Source: a virus
Length of the DNA: 37,134 nucleotides
Strand: one strand, 5' to 3'
IMG/VR virus record: IMGVR_UViG_3300044527_000383
Coordinates: 1 to 37,134 of that record
Shown: positions 3,024-26,159 of the stretch, one piece after another
Position numbering within the stretch: position 1 is the stretch's first letter
Layout: every line of letters begins with the position of its first letter
The notes under the pieces: generated by a model
What the model was told of the DNA's origin: nothing
What the model saw: only the letters and a program-made list of their open reading frames with translations
Databases searched by the model: none
Translations under genes and position numbers: made by a program

Positions 3024-4340
3024 ATGACCTTCCCGACCGTCCAGTCAGTCACACGCGGTAACAGCAACACCAACGCTACGAGCCGGAACGTCACGCTTCC
3101 GGCAACGATCAATGCCAACGACGTTCTCATTGCCCTGTTCGCCAACGATGGCGATGCGACGGTCACATGGGACAACACCACGGCGGGAACATGGACCCTG
3201 CTGTTCTCGACGGCGAGCGGGGTAGCCGCGCGCCTGACGGCGTACTGGAAGGTTGCAGACGGGACTGAAGACGGCGCTGTTCTGTCTATCGACACCTCGG
3301 CCATCGAGCGTTCGGCTTGGCATATCTACCGGATCAGCGGCGCCCAGAGTGTTGAGGCTGGAACGGCGGCAACGGGCACCAGCACGGCTCCGAACTCGCC
3401 CAGCCTGACGCCAAGCTGGGGCAGCGCTGACACCACATGGCTGACGGTTTTTGCGTCTGATAACCAGACGGCGGACCCGACAGACGGCCCGACGAATTAC
3501 ACGACCAATGATATTTACGACGATGCCCCCAACGCGGCGGGCGTTGGTGTTGGATCGTCTTATCGCGACAACGCGGCGTCATCGGAAGACCCGGCTGCGT
3601 GGACGATCGCCGCGTCTCTGGCGTGGGTTGCCAACACTATCGCGGTGCGTCCCGATGGCGGGGCGACCGACGCCACCGCATCGCCCGGCATAGACACGCT
3701 GGTCCTGACCGGACAAGCGCCAACGGTCAGCGCAAGTTCCACGGTCAGCCCCGGCATTCAAGCTCTGACGCTGACGGGCTTTGCGCCGACCGTCTCGACG
3801 GACACAAGTATCGAGGTCCAGCCGGGAGCGGGTTCGCTCGCACTGACAGGCTTTGCAGCTACGGTCAGCGCAACGCAGAGCCCGACAGTCGAGCCGGGAT
3901 TTGGCGCGCTGGTCATAACGGGATACGCGCCGCGGGTGTCCGTTGGCGGCGCATCACAGGACTTTCGCAACGTCCTCGATGGACGGAGCGAGAAATACTG
4001 GCTTGAGCGCAAGCAGAAAGAAAAAGAGAGACGCGAGAAGCGCGAGGCCGATCGCCTCGAAGCTCTGGAAGCCGAGCTTCGTGAACTTGAGGCCGAAACG
4101 GCCAAGCCGAAGAAAGCCGCAAAGAAACCAGTCGAAGCGCCGGCCATTGTCGAGGCTCCGGTTGAGGCGGCAATCAAGCAGCCTCCGCGCGCCAAGTTCA
4201 AACGGCTGGAACCGGAAACGACCGAACTAACGAAGGCAAAGGCGGCGGCGCTTGAAGCCGCAACGATGGCGGAAGCCTCTCAGGCAGCCTGGCAACGTCG
4301 ATACAGGGAAGCGGCTATCATGCTGCTGTTAGCGGCATGA
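3024..4340 (+). CDS. Beta-sandwich plus repeat virion protein, copy 2 of the duplicated module
   Basis: 438 residues in three parts. Residues 1-210 form a Thr/Asp-rich domain that looks like a beta sandwich (strands NVTLPATINANDVLIALFA, WTLLFSTASG, WHIYRISGAQ). Residues ~215-310 carry four repeats of ~27 residues with the core PGxxxLxLTGxAPTVS. Residues ~310-438 share SQDFRNVLDG with the 1330-1773 protein, then a highly charged helix rich in Lys/Glu/Arg with a Lys-Ala-Pro linker, ending in AIMLLLAA. The tail and the ATGA junction with the next gene duplicate the arrangement at 1773/1770. Likely an elongated virion protein. Confidence 0.6.
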   Translation: MTFPTVQSVTRGNSNTNATSRNVTLPATINANDVLIALFANDGDATVTWDNTTAGTWTLLFSTASGVAARLTAYWKVADGTEDGAVLSIDTSAIERSAWHIYRISGAQSVEAGTAATGTSTAPNSPSLTPSWGSADTTWLTVFASDNQTADPTDGPTNYTTNDIYDDAPNAAGVGVGSSYRDNAASSEDPAAWTIAASLAWVANTIAVRPDGGATDATASPGIDTLVLTGQAPTVSASSTVSPGIQALTLTGFAPTVSTDTSIEVQPGAGSLALTGFAATVSATQSPTVEPGFGALVITGYAPRVSVGGASQDFRNVLDGRSEKYWLERKQKEKERREKREADRLEALEAELRELEAETAKPKKAAKKPVEAPAIVEAPVEAAIKQPPRAKFKRLEPETTELTKAKAAALEAATMAEASQAAWQRRYREAAIMLLLAA

Positions 4341-8692: not shown

Positions 8693-9073
8693 ATGGCTGA
8701 CGCAGTCGCCTCCCAAACGCTTCAGGACGGTCCCCGCAACGCCGTGATGAAGTTCACAAACGTCTCTGACGGGACCGGCGAATCCGCTGTTTTGAAGGTG
8801 GATGTGTCGGCGCTGGACACGGCTCCTACCGAAGTCCGGATTATGAAAATCCACTACACGACGAGCGGCATGTCGGTTCGTATCCTCTGGGATGCAACGG
8901 CTGACGTGGTGGCGTGGATACTGCCGGCTGACGACACCGGAAGCATAGACTTCACGGCGTTCGGCGGCTTGGCAAATGATGGCGGCGCTGGCGTGACCGG
9001 GGACATCCTGTTCACCACGGTAGGCCACACAGCCGCAGACACTTACGCCATTGTTCTGGAGATGGCGAAGTGA
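8693..9073 (+). CDS. Small virion structural protein
   Basis: 126 residues, four bases after the preceding stop. The sequence is beta-rich and neutral (SAVLKVDVSALDTAPTEVRI, GMSVRILWDATADVVAWILP) and ends TYAIVLEMAK. This pattern of an eight- to ten-strand sandwich without catalytic residues matches small phage proteins encoded between coat and fibre genes. The stop overlaps the next GTG. Role unknown. Confidence 0.55.
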   Translation: MADAVASQTLQDGPRNAVMKFTNVSDGTGESAVLKVDVSALDTAPTEVRIMKIHYTTSGMSVRILWDATADVVAWILPADDTGSIDFTAFGGLANDGGAGVTGDILFTTVGHTAADTYAIVLEMAK

Positions 9074-9432
9074 CGTGGAAAGGCTCATACCAGCCGGGCA
9101 GGCCATACGCGGTCTGTGACCGTTGCTATGCCAAGGTCCGGCTGGATGAGCTGCGGACGGAATGGTCAAACTCGCGGGTATGTGACGGCTGCTACGACCC
9201 GCGACCTGTCCACCTGTCCACGCCTGTTCTGAGGCCTGGCGAGGGTGCGCCGCTTCCCGGTGCAAGGCCAGACACGCAGCCTGAAGCCGCGGATGCTGAT
9301 CTGGACTTCGAATATCGCGACGGCGTGTCCCGCATCTTCCCGCAATACCCCGATGGGGAAGCCCTGCTGCTGGATGAAGACGGCACAATTCTCACCGATG
9401 AAGATGACACCATTCTGACGGATGAAACCTGA
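9070..9432 (+). CDS. Zinc-ribbon phage protein with acidic tail
   Basis: 120 residues from the GTG that overlaps the previous stop (GTGA). Cysteines at 16, 19, 38 and 41 form two CxxC knuckles (CDRCYAK...RVCDGCYDPR) 18 residues apart, a zinc-ribbon pattern that I recall in phage structural operons. The C-terminus is acidic and ends in a short tandem repeat (DEDGTILTDE / DDTILTDE). Zinc probably only stabilises the fold, and no nuclease residues are evident. Its stop overlaps the next ATG (TGATG). Function unknown. Confidence 0.6.
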   Translation: MTWKGSYQPGRPYAVCDRCYAKVRLDELRTEWSNSRVCDGCYDPRPVHLSTPVLRPGEGAPLPGARPDTQPEAADADLDFEYRDGVSRIFPQYPDGEALLLDEDGTILTDEDDTILTDET

Positions 9433-10889
9433 TGGCGCTCGGTCGAAGGCTCTCACAGTCCACATCCAAGGCTAACAACCTCCGCGTTGATGGCGTTGGT
9501 ACGCAGTCGCTGGAAACATACATCGACAAGCTGGACCTGCTCACCGTCTCGGGGGCGAATACGTTCAACGACCTTACAGTCTCAGGCACGACACCGCGTC
9601 TCAACTTCATCGAAAGCGATGCAGCAACTGACGAGAAATACTTCAGCATCGTCTCCGACGCTGGGCGACTGTTCATCCAGTCTCGAAACGACGCCGGCAC
9701 GTTTGGCGAAAACATCATCGGTATTGATCGCACGGACACAGACGGCACTCAGATCCAGCTAAACGCTCCGGTTGTCATCTCAACAGATGAAAACACGACA
9801 GAAGTCGCCCTGACAATTGACTCATCAGGCCCGCTAAGCGGAACAACGGCAGGGCCATTCAAGTTCAACTACATTTTCGCTGAGTGGACGTCGGGAATGT
9901 CCGGCACAGGCGGTCCGGGCGAGGATGACAGCGCCTCGTTAACCGGAACGGTGTTTCAGTTGAACGTGGGCGGCCCGAACTATGATGGACTCGTGGCGGC
10001 GTTCTCAGTCGCTGTGAGCATTATCACTACCGATGACGACTCGTGCGCCGGAGATAAAACTGCTTTCTCAACCGGATTGCGAATCTCACATGCAAGCCCC
10101 GGCAAGGGGTATGCGGGCGCCAGCGCCGTAACCGTTGAGGCGGGGGGCGAAAGCCCTCAGGTTCTCACTTGGGAATGTGACCTCGCGATCAACACGCCAG
10201 ACGGAGTGATCAATGGGGGCGGGATAAACTCGTGGAGCTGGGGCTCATATCAAGCAACGAACACTTATAGCGCCTATCTGATTGGCGTTAGCGGGGCCCC
10301 CGGTGCCGCCAAATGGAAATCCGGGATCAAGCTTTACACGAATGAGGGCGGGGACGGTGACACGCCGCAGCCGATCGATACAGACGGCAACCTGATCGAC
10401 GCTGACAATCCGGGCACGCTCGGCAGTCTCATCTACCTACCCGATTGGGACGTGGACGAGTATCACATCAAGACACTGAACCTGGAGATCGACGGCGCGG
10501 GGCGTTACAATGGCGCGACCATTGATGAACTGGCATGGTCAAGCCATACGCCAACGATCAGCTCCGCTGGTGGATCAATCACGACGTCTTCCACATCCGG
10601 ACAGTACAGGCGACTTTTCGGCAGAACCATTGTCTACCGCGGTCGCGTCACGTTGACTACGGTCGGCACGGCTACCGGCGCATTGCAGATTGATCTTCCG
10701 GTTGATGCGGACACCACCAATTCTGCGGTGCTGTACGGGCGCGAAGTTGGAACAACAGGAAAAGGCGTTGCAGGCACCATTCAGTCTGCTGACCTTGTGA
10801 ATTGCATTTTAGTAGATGCCGCGAGCGTTTTCACAGGCGGAAACGGCACGATTGTAGACTTCGAACTTGTGTACGAAGCCGCCGCCTAA
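9432..10889 (+). CDS. Tail fibre / receptor-binding-type protein
   Basis: 485 residues, Gly/Ser/Thr/Asp-rich and beta-predicted throughout. After a short N-terminal anchor (residues 1-40) comes a typical fibre shaft segment (TVSGTTPRLNFIESDAATDE, RLFIQSRNDAGTFG), then a large domain with aromatic and Gly turns (INSWSWGSYQATNTYSAYLIG) and a C-terminal knob-like part (SSAGGSITTSSTSGQY onward). Such proteins usually form trimers that contact the host surface. Position among the small structural genes supports this; a role as a head or tail fibre cannot be separated from sequence. Confidence 0.65.
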   Translation: MALGRRLSQSTSKANNLRVDGVGTQSLETYIDKLDLLTVSGANTFNDLTVSGTTPRLNFIESDAATDEKYFSIVSDAGRLFIQSRNDAGTFGENIIGIDRTDTDGTQIQLNAPVVISTDENTTEVALTIDSSGPLSGTTAGPFKFNYIFAEWTSGMSGTGGPGEDDSASLTGTVFQLNVGGPNYDGLVAAFSVAVSIITTDDDSCAGDKTAFSTGLRISHASPGKGYAGASAVTVEAGGESPQVLTWECDLAINTPDGVINGGGINSWSWGSYQATNTYSAYLIGVSGAPGAAKWKSGIKLYTNEGGDGDTPQPIDTDGNLIDADNPGTLGSLIYLPDWDVDEYHIKTLNLEIDGAGRYNGATIDELAWSSHTPTISSAGGSITTSSTSGQYRRLFGRTIVYRGRVTLTTVGTATGALQIDLPVDADTTNSAVLYGREVGTTGKGVAGTIQSADLVNCILVDAASVFTGGNGTIVDFELVYEAAA

Positions 10890-10903
10890 ACAGGAAAAGC
10901 AAT

Positions 10904-11230
10904 ATGTTCTCGCTTACGTTCACCCCGCAGGAACTCGCCGCCATTCAGGTGTCGATTACGAACCCGCCAAAGGGTCATTCGACACCGGATATGCTCAAGG
11001 CGTCTGCGATGCTTGGCAAGTTTAAAGAAGCCATTACAGCCAACGAAGAGCATCCCGATCTTCTGCTCGAAAAAGCAGAGTTCGACTTCCTCAAGAGATG
11101 CTTCGACGGGATGGTGTGGGGCCGCTACGTTGAGGAAGTCAGCACGGCTCACGAAAAGATAATAGCTGCCAAGCAGGTCAAGGTTGAAATCGCCAAGCCA
11201 AACGGCGCGGAATACACTGCGCACAACTAG
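10904..11230 (+). CDS. Hypothetical helical phage protein
   Basis: 108 residues starting MFSLTFTPQELAAIQVSITN at 10904, preceded by AGGAAA; the frame is open further upstream but would overlap the fibre gene. The rest is helical (DMLKASAMLGKFKEAITANE, FLKRCFDGMVWGRYVEEV). It ends the rightward run of genes: its last four bases overlap the end of the convergent methyltransferase gene. No domain recognised; small proteins of this kind often accompany fibre genes. Confidence 0.5.
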   Translation: MFSLTFTPQELAAIQVSITNPPKGHSTPDMLKASAMLGKFKEAITANEEHPDLLLEKAEFDFLKRCFDGMVWGRYVEEVSTAHEKIIAAKQVKVEIAKPNGAEYTAHN

Positions 11231-12012
11231 GCTGGAACATAGAAACCATCATGTCCGGAGGCTTTGCGAAACACCTGCTTGAGCCCAGCGCGTTCCAGCA
11301 TCGCCTTGATTGCAGTCTCTACCGGCTCGCCGTGATGTTCGACCGCGATGAAGTTGATCCGGTAGGGTGTCGCTGCCCTGGCGTTCTCAGCGAAAAACGC
11401 TTCAAGGATCGCGTACTCTGAGCCTTCGGTGTCGCAGCTGAGAAAGTTGATCGTCTGCGGCGCTTCGTGATGCTGAAGCATATCAAAGAGAGAGATCGTC
11501 TCGACGCAGTAGGATCGCCCCCCGAGGTTGCCAGCAGTCATGTGGGCTGAGGTCGTGCTTTGGGTATGATCGTTCTCGGCTTCCGCAAACGTAAGGTATT
11601 CGCCGCTCTTGGCCGATACGCAGCGCGTCTCAATTTTCGCCCTGCGGTTGGCATATAGCCCGCCTTGCCAGTGACGCGACGGCTCAGCGAGGAGGCATGT
11701 CCAGGCAAACTCGCGTTCAAGCATCACAGTGTTAGACATGGCCAAGCCATCGCACGCGCCGAACTCGACTGCGTACCCGCCGCGCTTTCCCTGATTGTAG
11801 ATCAAGGCAAAGACGTCCTGAAAGAACTGTGACGTGGATTGGGGAACAGCATCCGCAATCTCAGCCATTTTGGTTCCGTTCGGAAACGCGCCGAACTGAC
11901 CAAAGGCAGACAGCAGGGCGTGCAGCCTGTCTCGCTGCTTAATCATCTGACGGACAGAGAAGGCATGAAATTCGGCCTGCTGCTGCCAGTTGGGTTCGAC
12001 AACTTCTGGCAT
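11227..12012 (-). CDS. FkbM-family SAM-dependent methyltransferase
   Basis: 261 residues from the ATG at 12012, chosen because AAGGAG stands ten bases upstream. The SAM-binding loop is VEFGACDGL (residues 82-90), followed by an acidic strand end (LLAEPSRHW) and the FkbM hallmark DTEGSE at 194-199. FkbM enzymes O-methylate sugars or secondary metabolites. It is on the opposite strand to the surrounding virion genes, four bases behind a ribbon-helix-helix regulator, so it is probably expressed from its own promoter in the lysogen. Methylation of host surface glycan, altering phage adsorption, is a reasonable inference but not shown. Confidence 0.8.
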   Translation of the reverse strand: MPEVVEPNWQQQAEFHAFSVRQMIKQRDRLHALLSAFGQFGAFPNGTKMAEIADAVPQSTSQFFQDVFALIYNQGKRGGYAVEFGACDGLAMSNTVMLEREFAWTCLLAEPSRHWQGGLYANRRAKIETRCVSAKSGEYLTFAEAENDHTQSTTSAHMTAGNLGGRSYCVETISLFDMLQHHEAPQTINFLSCDTEGSEYAILEAFFAENARAATPYRINFIAVEHHGEPVETAIKAMLERAGLKQVFRKASGHDGFYVPA

Positions 12013-12016
12013 GTTC

Positions 12017-12211
12017 CTACTCCTTGAGTCCAAGGGCCTGAGCGACGAGGCGACGTATCGCTTCGGGGCGCGTTGCTCCTGGCATGTTTTTGACGATCCA
12101 CGCATCCAGTGCTTTGAGCAATGGAGGCTGGAAGCGGACTCCTAAAAGCGTGCCCTTGCCAGTCGGCTTCGGGCCACGTCGTTTCTGTGTTATCACGGTT
12201 TTCTTTGCCAT
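12017..12211 (-). CDS. Ribbon-helix-helix (RHH/CopG-type) transcriptional regulator
   Basis: 64 residues (MAKKTVITQKRRGPKPTGKG...). The basic arm is followed by a strand (TLLGVRF), helix A (PPLLKALDAWIVKN), a turn, and helix B (TRPEAIRRLVAQALG), the classic RHH order in which paired strands enter the DNA major groove. The ATG at 12211 is preferred over upstream codons because it follows the family pattern, although only TTGACA stands before it. A 13-base motif occurs once just upstream of the ATG and once in the first codons, as expected for autoregulation. The gene ends four bases before the methyltransferase start, so both form an operon. Confidence 0.8.
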   Translation of the reverse strand: MAKKTVITQKRRGPKPTGKGTLLGVRFQPPLLKALDAWIVKNMPGATRPEAIRRLVAQALGLKE

Positions 12212-12232
12212 TGTCAACCGTGTTATCACGGT
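12187..12232 (-). promoter_or_regulatory. Likely RHH operator: repeated palindromic site
   Basis: A palindrome ACCGTG-TTAT-CACGGT spans 12217-12232. The 13 bases GTGTTATCACGGT occur at 12220-12232 and again at 12187-12199, 33 bp apart (about three helical turns). One copy is upstream of the RHH gene, the other overlaps its first codons. On the minus strand TTGACA (12216-12211) stands 17 bases from GATAAC inside the second copy, a possible promoter, though its start point would lie within the gene. Binding of the regulator here is inferred. Confidence 0.6.
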
Positions 12233-12284
12233 GGCGAGGCGAGCGGAACCTCGGCGCGATTGCAACGCTTCTGCGTGAGAAAAC

Positions 12285-12956
12285 ATGGCAATTTCCCTCA
12301 CCTACACAGCCGGCGAGTTCGTGGATGAAGCGCTGAAGCGCGTTCAGATCCTCGGAGACGGCCAGACCGCATCGGCCTATCAGTGGACAATAGCGCGCAG
12401 CCACATCAACGGGCTGCTCAAGCTGCTGGTGACGCAAGGTCCGAGCGAGTGGCGCAGGGCAACGCAGACGCCAGCCATGACCGCAGCGCAGGCTTATGTG
12501 ACGTGCAGCCCGCGTCCCGATCGCGTCCACCGCGTCTACTACCGCAACGCAGCCGGGTATGACCTGGAGATGCAGCAATGGAACATGGACGATTACGAGC
12601 GCATCCCGGTCAAGACCAGCACGGGACGCCCGACCATCTTCGCCGTCGATCGACAGCGCACATCCACCACGGTTTACATCTGGCCTGTTCCCGATGCGAC
12701 GATTGCGGCAGGTACGCTGCGCATCTCCTATGAGCGTGTCCCCGAGGATGTGGTGAACACGTCCGACATTATGGACATACCGCAAGAGGCTTTTGATGTC
12801 CTCATGGACCTTGTTGGTGGTCGGACGGGACAATCACTAGGACTTGCGGATAAGTCACCGGTTGCAGCAGCTTTGGAGCGCGGAACGGGCAACCTCAACG
12901 AGTTTTTGGGTTATGATCGCGGACATTCCATTAGGTTTTCCGTGGTGAGCGAATGA
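12285..12956 (+). CDS. P22 gp4-like head-completion / tail accessory protein
   Basis: 223 residues. The helical start (AGEFVDEALKRVQILGDGQT, with AYQWTIARSHINGLLKLLVT) and the following short beta domain (YVTCSPRPDRVHRVYYRNAA, TVYIWPVPDATIAAGTLRIS) match the form of P22 gp4-like proteins, which bind the portal and close the filled head. A C-terminal helix contains DIPQEAFDVLMDLVGG. The gene reopens the rightward late operon after the reversed methyltransferase cassette and lies upstream of ejection-protein genes, as in P22-like phages. Family assignment is by pattern, without alignment. Confidence 0.7.
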   Translation: MAISLTYTAGEFVDEALKRVQILGDGQTASAYQWTIARSHINGLLKLLVTQGPSEWRRATQTPAMTAAQAYVTCSPRPDRVHRVYYRNAAGYDLEMQQWNMDDYERIPVKTSTGRPTIFAVDRQRTSTTVYIWPVPDATIAAGTLRISYERVPEDVVNTSDIMDIPQEAFDVLMDLVGGRTGQSLGLADKSPVAAALERGTGNLNEFLGYDRGHSIRFSVVSE

Positions 12957-13537
12957 AGCTGTGTTCGGTAGAAGGTTGCGAGCGCAAGTTTCTCGCTAAA
13001 GGGATGTGCTCAAGCCATTACGATCGCTTCCGAAAGTATGGAACGACAGAACCCAAGCGTATGACAGAGAGGGGCGCGGGCCGTAGATTTGTCGAAGACA
13101 ACGTCGGGAACGCTTCCCAAGAATGTCTGTTTTGGCCGTTCCCTAACTGCGGATATCCAGAGGTTTCGGTGGATGGAAAGCGCATCAGGGCGCACCGCTA
13201 CATGTGCATTCTGAAGCATGGAGAACCAAAGCTACCGGCGCTGGAGGCGGCGCACTCGTGCGGGCAGGGTCACAAAGGGTGCGTAAACCCGAACCACATT
13301 CGCTGGCTTACCCCGTCAGAAAACCAGCTTGAGCGCCGCAAGCATGGCACCAGCAACGCTGGCGATCGGAATGGCCGTCGCAAGATCAACTCGCTCATCG
13401 CTGAGAAAATCCGCAACGATGCGCGTCGTCCAAAAGAAATTGCGGCAGAGTTCGGCATTACACCTTCGATGATTTGGGAAATCAGAACCGGGCGGGCATG
13501 GGCCATCCCGTCTCAACAGAGTGAGCATAATCCATGA
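12953..13537 (+). CDS. HNH homing-type endonuclease
   Basis: 194 residues in three parts. An N-terminal zinc finger-like region (CSVEGCERKFLAKGMCSSHY); a central HNH core with AHRYMCILKHG, then AAHSCGQGHKGCVNPNHIRW, giving the His-Asn-His metal site; and a C-terminal helix-turn-helix (PKEIAAEFGITPSMIWEIRT) for DNA recognition. This architecture is common in free-standing phage homing nucleases. It sits between structural genes with ATGA overlaps on both sides, so it was inserted without breaking coupling. Local sequence is more A/T-rich than its neighbours, consistent with transfer. Confidence 0.8.
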   Translation: MKLCSVEGCERKFLAKGMCSSHYDRFRKYGTTEPKRMTERGAGRRFVEDNVGNASQECLFWPFPNCGYPEVSVDGKRIRAHRYMCILKHGEPKLPALEAAHSCGQGHKGCVNPNHIRWLTPSENQLERRKHGTSNAGDRNGRRKINSLIAEKIRNDARRPKEIAAEFGITPSMIWEIRTGRAWAIPSQQSEHNP

Positions 13538-13716
13538 GCAAGCCAAAAATCACTGACGACTCGATCCGCGTTCTCCGCAAGGCGCTGCGCACGAAGCTGG
13601 GTATCAGCGCGGGCAAGCCTGCGAAGAAGCAGGTGAAGCGCGAGAAGGTCGAGGACGAGGAGCCCGCCCCGCGCGCGAAGAAAGCGGAACGTCTGGGCTA
13701 CGCTGACCTCTCGTGA
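13534..13716 (+). CDS. Small basic/acidic protein
   Basis: 60 residues. A short helix (DDSIRVLRKALRTKLGISAG) is followed by a Lys/Glu/Pro-rich segment and a conserved-looking end (RLGYADLS). It overlaps both neighbours by four bases (ATGA and GTGA), which supports that it is translated. The charge pattern resembles small virion or scaffold-type linkers; no function can be assigned. Confidence 0.5.
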   Translation: MSKPKITDDSIRVLRKALRTKLGISAGKPAKKQVKREKVEDEEPAPRAKKAERLGYADLS

Positions 13717-14129
13717 ACGTTCGCCCGGCGACGCTGGACGACCTGCCGCGCCTCATGGGCTATGCGGCTGAGTTCCTGTCCTATCATCCGCTCACCAGCC
13801 AGTTTCCGCGCGATATGACGGCGGTGGAAGCCATGCTGCGGCGGATGATCGAGGGCGAGGACGCAGCGTTGCTGGTGCATGATCGTGGGGCCATTGGCGG
13901 GGTCATTGCTCCGCTCTGGTGTTCGCCTGACGTGCGTGTGGCGAATGAGCTGTTCTGGTGGTCCGAGGCCAACGGGCTGAGCCTGATGAAAGCCTTCGAA
14001 GCGTGGGCCAACGAACGCGGCGCGCAGGTGGTCAACATGGTGATGATAATGGGCCGTCGCGACGTTTCACCGATCTATGACCGGGCGGGATACATGCCGA
14101 TTGAACTTTCGTTTGTGAGGGCCGCCTGA
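13713..14129 (+). CDS. GNAT-family N-acetyltransferase
   Basis: 138 residues from a GTG within the GTGA overlap. It starts with the usual GNAT strand-helix (NVRPATLDDLPRLMGYAAEF), then a strand pair around ALLVHDRGAIGGVIAPLW, the helix after the acetyl-CoA loop (LMKAFEAWANERGAQVV), and the closing strand with SPIYDRAGYMPIELSFV. The pyrophosphate-binding loop is not a clear Q/RxxGxG/A. Such genes are often found beside ejection-protein genes in podovirus-like phages, where their substrate is unknown; acetylation of a host or virion protein is possible. Confidence 0.75.
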   Translation: MNVRPATLDDLPRLMGYAAEFLSYHPLTSQFPRDMTAVEAMLRRMIEGEDAALLVHDRGAIGGVIAPLWCSPDVRVANELFWWSEANGLSLMKAFEAWANERGAQVVNMVMIMGRRDVSPIYDRAGYMPIELSFVRAA

Positions 14130-21643: not shown

Positions 21644-22411
21644 ATGGCAAGAAATCTTTTCGGCTTAGTCCATACGCTTCTGGATGATAGCGGAGCTTTG
21701 GAACCGGGCGGGACCATCGAGGTCTATGACGCCGGAACCACGACGCCGCGAACAGTCTATTCTGATCGCGCGCTATCAACGGGTGCGGGCTCAACCATCA
21801 CGGCTGATGCAGCGGGACGCTTTCCAGAACGCTGGATAGCGGACTCGGTTGAGGTCAAGCTTGTCTACAAGGACACGGCAGGGGCCACGCTCAGCACGCG
21901 CGATTACTACAACAATAATTTCAACTCCGTCCCCGCGACGTGGGAAACGTCTGCCCTTGGCGCTGTCAGTGGCAACGAACAGGTTTATCACACACTCCAG
22001 ACGGCTGACGCGAACCAGACGCGCATTATCACCCGCAGCTATCGCTTTTCCAACGGCGCTACTCACGAGACGAACGCGCTGGAACTTAGACGGCGCGTCG
22101 ATAGCACGGACCACGGGCATGTCCGGTTTCAATACGACCGCACCGCCATAGGCTTCAACGGCGTCAATCATTGGGAAGCCACGTCGAGCGGCCATCTACA
22201 GCCAACAACTGATAGCTCATACGACATCGGCGCAACCGCTACGCGCCCACGCGTCATCTATGGCGATGACCTGTCATTGCGTCCCAGCGCCTCCCGAACG
22301 CCTGCTGCGAATGGCGACCTGGAGATCGAGGCGACCAACAACACGACGCTGACCTTCAAGTTCAAGGGATCAGACGGAACAGTCCGCAGCGGAACGGTGA
22401 CACTGTCATGA
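21644..22411 (+). CDS. Tailspike / tail fibre protein with head-binding domain
   Basis: 255 residues. The N-terminal ~100 residues contain GGTIEVYDAGTTTPRTVYSD and ADAAGRFPERWIADSVEVKL, the pattern of the particle-binding domain of tailspikes. The C-terminal part carries SGHLQPTTDSSYDIGATATR and RVIYGDDLSLRP, similar to the end of trimeric fibres. The enzymatic beta-helix found in P22-like spikes is absent, so this protein probably binds rather than cuts the receptor. Seven bases separate it from the previous gene; its stop overlaps the next start in ATGA. Confidence 0.75.
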   Translation: MARNLFGLVHTLLDDSGALEPGGTIEVYDAGTTTPRTVYSDRALSTGAGSTITADAAGRFPERWIADSVEVKLVYKDTAGATLSTRDYYNNNFNSVPATWETSALGAVSGNEQVYHTLQTADANQTRIITRSYRFSNGATHETNALELRRRVDSTDHGHVRFQYDRTAIGFNGVNHWEATSSGHLQPTTDSSYDIGATATRPRVIYGDDLSLRPSASRTPAANGDLEIEATNNTTLTFKFKGSDGTVRSGTVTLS

Positions 22412-23394: not shown

Positions 23395-24639
23395 ATGGGC
23401 AAGTTTCTGGACACTTTCCTCGAATTTAAGAACGAGGCAGACGCGACCCGCAAGGGCGCGTTGCTGGCCGTCATCATCATCACGTTTGGCCTCGCCTCGC
23501 TGAGTGTCACTGGCGTCGTCGCAACTGCCCACTGGTCGTGGCTTTCTGCGCTGCCAATCATCGCGCTGGTTTTCGCGGTCCTCGGCGCTGAACTGCTCGC
23601 GACCGTGGCGTTCATCAGGATGCTCACGGCATCCACGATGTGGCGCAAAGTGGCGGGCTCTTTCATCTTTCTCGGCTTGGCCGCGATCGGCGTACACAAT
23701 GCGGAGAACGGGGCGAAGGTCGTCTGGCCGGAACGGTTCGCTGTCTCATCCAGCAGGCTTGCAGCAGAGGCTGAGCTTGCCGGCGAGGAAGCGGCAACAC
23801 TGGCGACGGCGCAGGAAGCAGCCATCGGCGGGACCGGCGCAGAGCTTGAGCGTGTCAGGACGCAGATTGCAGAGCTTCGCACCGAACAGCAGATCATGGC
23901 GAGCATGTCCCCAGAGGGCATCTCCAAGGCTCAATCGCTGTTGCTCGCTCAGGGCCTTTATTTCGGCTCCGTCGATGGCATCAGGCAAGACAAGACCGAA
24001 TCCGGGATGCGTGCGCGGGGCGAAGCTATCCAAGGCGAACTCGCGACACTCAGGGCGCGTGAGGATGGCCTCATGGCGGGGCAGGCAAGCCCCGTACAGC
24101 AAGCCAACACTGACAAGCGGCTCCTACAGATTGAGAACGCTGATAAGGCTACTGCGGCGTGGTGGGCGTGGCTGTGGCTGATCATTATGCTGTGCGTTCT
24201 GGAAAGCGCTCGCTCGCTGTCCTTGTGGGCGCTCATCACCGACATCAGCTCAACGGATGCCAAGCGCGACCGGGAGTGGACCGACGAGCTTGCAGCACTG
24301 CGGCACCAGCAGGAGCGGGCGCGGATCATCGCGGAGACGAACGCTGCGGTTGCAGCCTACTCAGCCCCGCCTGAGCCTGTAGCTGCCCCGCCTGTAGCGG
24401 TTGAGCCTCCCCCGGCCATCGAACTAGCCCCAGAGCCAGAACCCGCACCAGTGGTCACGCCAGAGCCTGAGCCGATCGTTCTGGTCGAGCCGGTTGAGAT
24501 GACGGAGCAGGAGCGCCGCTCACGTCTGGGCGGGCTTGCGGCTCAACATCAGCGCCGGGCCGACAAGACCGAGCGCCTGCTTGTCATCGGGCCGACTTCG
24601 ACAATTGACACCCTCGCAATGGGAGTGGCCGCAGAATGA
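23395..24639 (+). CDS. Multi-span membrane protein with peptidoglycan-binding-like motif
   Basis: 414 residues. Spans at ~21-43, 49-75 and 84-101 are followed by a charged coiled-coil domain (~115-255), a fourth span (WWAWLWLIIMLCVLESARSL) and a long Pro/Glu/Ala/Val-rich tail. Between spans three and four QSLLLAQGLYFGSVDGIRQD resembles the PG-binding repeat (LxxLGYxxGxxDGxxG), which would place that domain in the periplasm. Its stop overlaps the ATG of the Hsp70-like gene (ATGA), so the two are co-translated. Not a recognised family; perhaps an envelope sensor for lysis. Confidence 0.6.
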   Translation: MGKFLDTFLEFKNEADATRKGALLAVIIITFGLASLSVTGVVATAHWSWLSALPIIALVFAVLGAELLATVAFIRMLTASTMWRKVAGSFIFLGLAAIGVHNAENGAKVVWPERFAVSSSRLAAEAELAGEEAATLATAQEAAIGGTGAELERVRTQIAELRTEQQIMASMSPEGISKAQSLLLAQGLYFGSVDGIRQDKTESGMRARGEAIQGELATLRAREDGLMAGQASPVQQANTDKRLLQIENADKATAAWWAWLWLIIMLCVLESARSLSLWALITDISSTDAKRDREWTDELAALRHQQERARIIAETNAAVAAYSAPPEPVAAPPVAVEPPPAIELAPEPEPAPVVTPEPEPIVLVEPVEMTEQERRSRLGGLAAQHQRRADKTERLLVIGPTSTIDTLAMGVAAE

Positions 24640-26159
24640 AACTTTCTAGAGTCGTGGGCCTAGACTTGGGTTCGAGCAACAGCAGCATCGCCTGGTACAA
24701 TGGGCGCGTGCCGGAAGTCATCTCCGTTGATGGCTCGCCGCTCATGCCTTCGGTCGTCACCATCGTCCCTGCCGATGCCGTAGGGCCGGGCGAAAGCCAG
24801 ATATTCGTCGGCCTTGATGGCATTGAATCGGGCAAGCGTTTCCCCGATTTCTGCTTCAGGCTGGCAAAGCGGAAGCTGGGTGAAATGTGGCACCCGGACG
24901 AAGATCAGGGCTACCAGACGGTAGGCGCTCCCGATGGCGCGCTGCACTATCAAGGACCGGACGGACACACGTACAGCCCCGTTGAAATCTGCTCGATGCT
25001 CATTGCCAAGCTGCTCGATGCGGCGACGGCAAAGTTCAAGGGCGAGAAGCCGGATGCGGCGGTGATCTGCGTCCCGGCCACGTTCTCTCCAAGCCAGCGC
25101 AAGGCGGTTGAGGAAGCAGGCCGGATGGCGGGCCTTGCCTATGTCGAGCTGATGGACGAGCCGACCGCGGCAGCGCTCGCATATGGCTACGATTTCAAAA
25201 AAGTTCGTCGCATTGCCGTCCTCGATGTGGGCGGCGGCACCACGGATGTGTCGATCATCCAGACAGGCTCTGGCCTCGTCACGGTTCTCGGCACGGGCGG
25301 CTCCAGCATTACGGGCGGGAGCGATGTGGACGCCATCCTTGGCAGGTACATTGTCCACAAGTGGGCGACCGATCATGAGGGTACTGACCTCGCCGTCGAT
25401 GACACGGCGATGTCGCTGGTTCTTCAGGAAGCAGAGGACGTGAAGAAGCGCCTCTCGCGCAAGGTCAAGTCGGAGTTCCGCATCAAGGATTTCGACCGAA
25501 GCCCAGGCGGGACGGACCTCCACATGGACTACATTGTCGATCGTCCGTTGCTGGAACATCTCTCGCAAGACCTCCTCAAGCGGATGCGCGCTGCGTGCCT
25601 CGTCGCCATCGCAGAGGCTACACGGAAAGACGCCAACTTCTCGTCAAAGCGGGATCTAAACGACGTGGTCCTCGTCGGCGGTGGATCGAGAATGCCGGCT
25701 GTTCAGGCGATGGCGAAAGACGTGTTCGGGCAGGAAGCCAAGACCGACATCGATTGCGAAGTGGCGGTTGCGCTTGGCGCTGCGATCCGCGCTGCTGTGC
25801 TTGAGGGCCGGAAGTCTGACCTGACCATCTCGGACATCACCTCATGGTCGATCGCGGTGGAAGTCTACGACAAAGTGGAGGGCGTGGCGTCTGTCGTCAT
25901 TCCCCGCGGAACGCCTTATCCGAGCGAGCGCGTTCTGCCGTTCATCCTCACGAACCGCGAGCCCGGCCAGAGCGTGATGCCTGTTCGCATCGTTGCCGGC
26001 GACCATGACCGCGCTGCGTCCTGCGAGCTGCTTCACAGCATCGACGTGCCGTTGGAGCCGGGTGATCCGCGCAGCGCTCGCGTGCCGTTCACGGTCGGCC
26101 TCAACAGCCGGGGCGAGGCTTATGGAATGTGCGGCGACATTGAGTGGGGCTCAACGTGA
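24636..26159 (+). CDS. Hsp70/DnaK-like chaperone ATPase
   Basis: 507 residues. All nucleotide-binding motifs are present: phosphate-1 GLDLGSSNSS (8-17), the catalytic Lys in LAKRKLGE (K78), connect-1 DEPTAAALAYG (174-184, with the Glu matching DnaK E171), phosphate-2 LDVGGGTTDVS (D197, T202), adenosine motif LVGGGSRMP (346-354) and connect-2 VAVALGAAI. A linker DLTISD (395-400) leads to a domain aligning with the DnaK substrate-binding beta sandwich (from ITSWSIAVEVYDK). The alpha-helical lid is missing (DnaK has ~638 residues). ATGA/GTGA overlaps tie it to a membrane protein before and an endolysin after. It is likely an active ATPase; the target is unknown. Confidence 0.9.
   Translation: MKLSRVVGLDLGSSNSSIAWYNGRVPEVISVDGSPLMPSVVTIVPADAVGPGESQIFVGLDGIESGKRFPDFCFRLAKRKLGEMWHPDEDQGYQTVGAPDGALHYQGPDGHTYSPVEICSMLIAKLLDAATAKFKGEKPDAAVICVPATFSPSQRKAVEEAGRMAGLAYVELMDEPTAAALAYGYDFKKVRRIAVLDVGGGTTDVSIIQTGSGLVTVLGTGGSSITGGSDVDAILGRYIVHKWATDHEGTDLAVDDTAMSLVLQEAEDVKKRLSRKVKSEFRIKDFDRSPGGTDLHMDYIVDRPLLEHLSQDLLKRMRAACLVAIAEATRKDANFSSKRDLNDVVLVGGGSRMPAVQAMAKDVFGQEAKTDIDCEVAVALGAAIRAAVLEGRKSDLTISDITSWSIAVEVYDKVEGVASVVIPRGTPYPSERVLPFILTNREPGQSVMPVRIVAGDHDRAASCELLHSIDVPLEPGDPRSARVPFTVGLNSRGEAYGMCGDIEWGST

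Follow-up and report, generated by a model that had tools for sequence, protein, structure and literature searches.

Introduction

Phage T5 and related phages offer an established example of a receptor-binding gene accompanied by an exclusion gene of its own; in T5, the gene of the exclusion protein Llp adjoins the receptor-binding gene on its downstream side (PMC9586334). The locus described here, found in a 37,134-nt stretch of viral DNA (positions 1-37,134 of IMG/VR record IMGVR_UViG_3300044527_000383; hereafter, the window), is like T5 pb5 (oad)/Llp and like the Cor lipoproteins of T1 and phi80 in that a candidate exclusion gene lies near an inferred receptor-binding gene. Llp, however, is a lipoprotein of small size whose target is a receptor protein that it blocks, whereas the partner in the window is a predicted methyltransferase encoded on the opposite strand, with a repressor of its own and a proposed glycan target. 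Because this partner is a 261-aa FkbM-domain protein rather than a small outer-membrane lipoprotein, we do not place the unit among the Llp/Cor systems.

Serotype-converting modification of the O-antigen (by gtr operons and O-acetyltransferases of temperate phages, by RfbT of Vibrio, and in Sf101) relies on enzymes that alter surface polysaccharide and can change phage receptors; to our knowledge, no serotype-converting genes travel with a fibre tip. Unlike gtr operons and O-acetyltransferases, the enzyme in the window would transfer methyl groups. It gives no match to the RfbT family (PF05575), which proteins of phage AP-16-3 and of the viral locus L107 match below the cut-off only.

A gene order like that of the window, with an FkbM-domain gene directly after a tail fibre gene, occurs in the Sinorhizobium phages phiLM21, phi3LM21 and AP-16-3. 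Unlike in the window, no small ORF separates the two genes in these phages, the FkbM gene of phi3LM21 lies on the strand of the fibre, and the FkbM proteins of phiLM21 and AP-16-3 are no clear BLAST relatives of the window protein (E 0.16 and 0.038). In Serratia symbiotica, one and the same FkbM gene carried insertions in two evolved clones, whose phage resistance is attributed by the authors to altered surface polysaccharide (PMC12505973). Our search of open-licence papers found none that connects FkbM to superinfection and to a phage receptor.

Here, we describe an exchanged segment of phage DNA that combines a fibre C-terminal domain, a small ORF, a convergent FkbM gene and a gene for a ribbon-helix-helix (RHH)-type repressor. 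On balance, we favor the view that it is a cassette that pairs receptor recognition with receptor modification, and with exclusion in the lysogen.

Results

Layout of the locus

The window encodes an integrase and a Cro/C1-type helix-turn-helix protein, and therefore likely belongs to a temperate phage. Two minus-strand genes with their own repeated operator-like element had been noted among its plus-strand virion genes, and we could locate both, as an FkbM-family (PF05050) methyltransferase gene and an RHH-type regulator gene. The features of the locus are as follows.

9070..9432, plus strand: zinc-ribbon-like gene, left of the exchange site
9324..12284, both strands: exchange segment, comprising the C-terminal extension of the 9070-9432 gene, the fibre gene, orf108, the FkbM gene and the RHH gene
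9432..10889, plus strand: fibre-like protein, 485 aa; residues 1-35 are the anchor, residues 36-485 the exchanged C-terminal domain
9585..12070, both strands: block common to the window and the distant phage G001 (IMGVR_UViG_3300037493_003860), 81% DNA identity
10904..11230, plus strand: orf108, 108 aa, no family; 85% identity to the G001 copy
11227..12012, minus strand: FkbM-family methyltransferase, 261 aa, PF05050
12017..12211, minus strand: RHH-type regulator, 64 aa, 4 bp ahead of the FkbM gene
12187..12199: second copy of the candidate operator, within the regulator reading frame, 33 bp from the first
12217..12232: candidate operator copy ACCGTGTTATCACGGT, directly upstream of the regulator start codon
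12285..12956, plus strand: SU10-type adaptor (PF24175, E 2.7e-10), right of the exchange site

The initial annotation had drawn the cassette at 11227-12232. The minus-strand pair stands, but these limits do not: the foreign unit spans approximately 9324-12284 and takes in the fibre gene and orf108. The claim that the cassette is not a virion gene is likewise limited to the FkbM and RHH genes, because the exchange block also contains the fibre gene. That the 9432-10889 product acts as a fibre is suggested by the layout and by the resemblance of its end to other fibres, and gene order suggests that the flanking virion genes form a late operon. The FkbM gene and orf108 are convergent, their ends overlapping by 4 bp, and a promoter scan found none. 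Elsewhere in the window, a full Hsp70/DnaK-type chaperone gene (24636-26159; PF00012, E 2.5e-83), unusual for a phage of this size, lies between a membrane-protein-like gene and a phage lysozyme gene.

The FkbM protein scores above the Pfam cut-off for PF05050 (E 1.1e-9; 39.1 bits against 22.7) and below the NCBIfam cut-off for TIGR01444 (31.7 bits against 37.7), so that we use the name on the Pfam definition only. Both the window copy and the G001 copy retain the sequence EFGACDG (residues 83-89), and the strict glycine-rich motif I pattern has no match in the window, G001 or phiLM21 proteins. The AlphaFold model of the protein is poor (pLDDT 41). With a dN/dS of 0.09 between the window and G001, the gene is kept by selection, and the predicted activity of its product is O-methyl transfer to a sugar or other small substrate. 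Two other identities were rejected: a DNA methyltransferase and, given that sibling phages lack FkbM, a plain assembly protein. The product of orf108 belongs to no Pfam or PHROG family; its dN/dS is 0.047 (window against G001), and structure prediction yields a weak four-helix model (pLDDT 61).

Searches of genome contigs with the FkbM protein and with the adaptor returned no relatives, and searches of solved structures returned nothing useful. At the DNA level, positions 10886-12300 had no distant match, and positions 1-24999 no near match, among 50,697 phage records. An FkbM match was also found on a Rhizobium plasmid, in a record without annotation.

The segment in sibling phages

With the adaptor as query, 12 close siblings at 84-100% identity and a further two that are remote were recovered, and a profile search added L042 (74%). 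The 12 siblings in which the site could be read do not include L019, whose contig stops inside the adaptor, or L021 and L022, which are 24% matches. Positions 9324-12284 are missing in 11 of these 12, the zinc-ribbon gene running straight into the adaptor. Accordingly, the distance from the start of the zinc-ribbon match to the start of the adaptor is 275 bp in each empty sibling, compared with 1871 bp in L016 and 3215 bp in the window. Several siblings are near duplicates as judged by equal match values (L011 with L012 and L017 with L020), and the 11 empty sites thus amount to fewer than 11 independent cases.

The site in L016 holds a fibre gene that shares the first 21 residues of the window fibre (74% identity over 35) and continues into another C-terminal part, without orf108, FkbM or the regulator. 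The extended C-terminus of the zinc-ribbon gene is common to the window and L016 and missing in the empty siblings. Since L016 shares the anchor, the empty state may be a loss. The comparison of these genomes establishes exchange at this site, where the segment is present or absent as a unit. Among the 16 records G000-G015, PF05050 is present in two only (G000 and G001). This patchy distribution, together with the operator-like repeats and the integrase and Cro/C1-type repressor encoded in the window, supports the earlier description of a moron-like, regulated, reversed cassette.

Two further genes were observed to the right of the adaptor. An HNH endonuclease gene (12953-13537), located between the adaptor and the gene starting at 13534, is 100% identical in L019 and has no match at this place in the other siblings compared. 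An acetyltransferase-like gene (13713-14129; PHROG 1249) stands among the virion genes, is 73-100% identical in siblings, and could encode a second modifier of the surface or the virion.

Transfer between the window phage and G001

In viral searches with the FkbM protein, its catalytic part, orf108 and the fibre, G001 was the only other holder of the block, which is thus documented by one further example. The two phages are 94% identical over fibre residues 36-485, 85% over orf108 and 82% over FkbM, while the remaining G001 matches to window proteins show 47%, 44%, 29% and 23% identity. The fibre, orf108 and FkbM genes are contiguous in both phages. In G001, the block occupies another genome position, after an ejection-type protein, and its fibre has a different and longer N-terminus.

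Silent divergence is alike along the block (pS of 0.58 for FkbM, 0.69 for orf108, 0.64 for the fibre tip and 0.66 for the regulator tail), and dN/dS ranges from 0.03 to 0.09 (0.09, 0.05, 0.03 and 0.04, respectively), which fits a single transfer of a functional unit. These sequence comparisons establish that the block has passed from one phage to another that is only distantly related, where it is joined to a different fibre anchor, and that its genes are under purifying selection.

The regulator and its candidate operator

The 64-aa regulator has no Pfam family. It matches PHROG 4738 ('transcriptional repressor', E 8e-4), and an ORF of Komagataeibacter phage phiKM1 that is 40% identical to it (E 3e-4) passes the cut-off of PF01402 (RHH_1); the RHH label rests on these two matches. 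Coagulation-factor matches of the regulator profile among solved structures were put down to chance. In phiKM1, an unannotated RHH gene (L028 4001-4204) lies reversed among late genes, and behind it are a 168-aa gene, whose function is unassigned, and a transposase gene.

A 13-nt exact direct repeat (12187-12199 and 12220-12232, 33 bp apart) occurs before and inside the regulator gene. Dinucleotide shuffling of the 151-bp region gave no exact repeat of this length in 2000 trials; the 16-nt palindrome, taken by itself, is weaker, being equalled in 72 of 1000 shuffles (not significant). The repeat is operator-like, and we consider it a candidate autoregulatory operator to which the regulator is predicted to bind.

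Between the window and G001, the regulators are 48% identical overall: the last 17 residues are identical and residues 1-47 share little. The G001 operator has another sequence, also with one site before and one inside the gene, 32 bp apart (33 in the window). As the last 17 residues are identical while residues 1-47 and the operators differ, the recombination edge lies inside the regulator gene. The regulator head and the operator have thus been replaced together in G001 with the two-site spacing conserved, a co-change that would be anticipated if the DNA-binding part of an autoregulator coevolves with its sites.

A second block of the same layout

The order of fibre gene, 82-aa ORF and convergent FkbM gene recurs at four other viral loci (L084, L085, L095 and L104). 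The 82-aa ORF belongs to PHROG 18617 in L084, L085 and L104, the three in which it was scanned. Within this second block, the fibre tips are 71-87% identical and the FkbM proteins 73-91%, and the tips are joined to three kinds of fibre anchor, one of them shared by L084 and L095. The DNA that L084 has in common with L085 (81%) or with L104 (67%) has its boundary inside the fibre gene. By eye, no recognisable RHH gene occurs in the 700 bases ahead of FkbM at any of the four loci.

The FkbM protein of the window found none of the four FkbM proteins of the second block even at a blastp E of 10, and orf108 has no PHROG family; we therefore regard the two blocks as one architecture in two lineages unlinked by sequence.

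FkbM genes in other phages

The Sinorhizobium phage FkbM genes were picked from papers, regardless of their position. The FkbM gene is convergent with the last tail fibre gene in phiLM21 (49 bp away) and with the tail fibre gene in AP-16-3 (41 bp away), and in phi3LM21 the two genes share a strand, with FkbM beginning 1 bp behind the fibre gene. phiLM21 and phi3LM21 are phages of one strain, and their fibres are 70% identical over nearly the whole length, but their FkbM proteins are unrelated and encoded in opposite orientations; the pairing of fibre and FkbM is thus not strict. The window tail protein at 21644-22411 closes with 46 residues that match the end of the AP-16-3 tail fibre H (L030 from 20093) at 61% identity.

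A search with the AP-16-3 FkbM protein returned 56 viral loci, and one with that of phi3LM21 returned L107. Three of these 57 loci (L065, L066 and L080) have no resolved FkbM ORF, and we scanned the two neighbors of FkbM in 36 representatives of the other 54. At least five of the 36 adjoin a tail-fibre gene (L071, L084, L085, L104 and L107), four of them convergently; this is a lower bound based on the first 25 of 48 and the first 25 of 74 families. At the other representative loci, the neighbors include terminases, glycosyltransferases and resolvases. In L071, FkbM is preceded by two small genes (3270-3860) that, by eye, resemble a toxin of the HigB/RelE type and an antitoxin with a helix-turn-helix.

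The window, G001, phiLM21, AP-16-3, L071, L084, L085, L095 and L104 all have FkbM antisense to the fibre. In phi3LM21, L107 and L051, FkbM shares its strand with the long gene before it, which makes late expression likely there; with FkbM on the fibre's strand in phi3LM21, expression confined to the lysogen is not universal for fibre-FkbM pairs. In six large phages, FkbM-like genes keep company with genes for replication, nucleotide metabolism, tRNAs or sugar functions, and none of the six has one beside a fibre gene (one of them, a Synechococcus phage, has a baseplate gene at a distance of two genes). The FkbM family as such is therefore not tied to receptors. In LR756501 and LR756503 (735,411 bases, uncultured giant phage), FkbM-like matches occur at three places, at approximately 304, 310 and 319 kb.

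Discussion

The reading that we favor on balance treats the segment as an exchange cassette. The fibre tip would bind a glycan on the cell surface, and in the lysogen FkbM would methylate that glycan or a neighboring sugar, so that phages with the same tip would adsorb poorly. The Serratia symbiotica clones with FkbM insertions lend the glycan step indirect support. The repressor would occupy the two operators and limit the operon to which it belongs. Late transcription entering from the fibre would run antisense through FkbM and the regulator, and for this reason we propose that the enzyme is mainly made in lysogeny or early. A swap of the fibre tip would then bring along its own exclusion enzyme. 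The methylation target and superinfection exclusion are both suppositions within this scheme, and the idea of a receptor gains an argument from the fact that FkbM travels with one particular fibre C-terminal domain. A candidate exclusion gene that changes together with the receptor-binding domain is seen in the two exchange blocks, and not between phiLM21 and phi3LM21.

More tentatively, we raise the possibility that such units form a recurrent class, consisting of a tip, a small partner and an antiparallel FkbM, that moves between unrelated phages. The enzyme would methylate the sugar epitope of its own tip, a change of receptor would bring immunity with it, and at least two lineages unrelated in sequence would have arisen independently.

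FkbM might instead be a general lysogenic-conversion gene that changes the surface for other benefits, concerning other phages, predators or plant/immune interaction, with its place beside the fibre reflecting a recombination hotspot. The fibre region is mosaic here too, as L016 illustrates, and phiLM21 and phi3LM21 combine common fibres with different FkbM genes, both of which agree with such a role, as does the treatment of FkbM genes as auxiliary genes of Sinorhizobium phages in PMC5537653. Nevertheless, joint movement of tip and FkbM is seen in two lineages that are unrelated to each other, both of them with FkbM convergent on the fibre side, and we regard this explanation as rather unlikely.

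Less probable still is a function in the lytic cycle, with FkbM or orf108 making or protecting the fibre, or preventing new virions from sticking to the debris of lysed cells. Fibre chaperones are often encoded directly after the fibre on the same strand, as orf108 is, and the FkbM gene of phi3LM21, 1 bp behind its fibre gene, would suit this role as well. Against it, FkbM is antisense to the fibre in the nine phages and contigs listed above, a regulator of its own accompanies it in the window and in G001, and siblings without FkbM are still found as viruses. A selfish stability module, with the RHH protein as antitoxin and FkbM as toxin, was considered and rejected as highly improbable: the layout resembles that of toxin-antitoxin pairs, in that the larger gene follows the small RHH-type gene after 4 bp and the operator looks autoregulatory, but PF05050 is a family of metabolic methyltransferases, and in the second block no RHH gene could be recognised within the 700 bases scanned ahead of FkbM.

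If the cassette does pair receptor recognition with receptor modification, this would account for the presence of methyltransferases alongside some fibre tips, and the sugar methylated by the travelling enzyme would identify the receptor of the fibre. The sequence rule of a fibre tip, a small ORF and a convergent FkbM gene would then find exclusion genes whose targets are glycans, not outer-membrane proteins. For environmental temperate phages, whose glycan receptors are mostly unknown, such a reading would make the question of the receptor testable.
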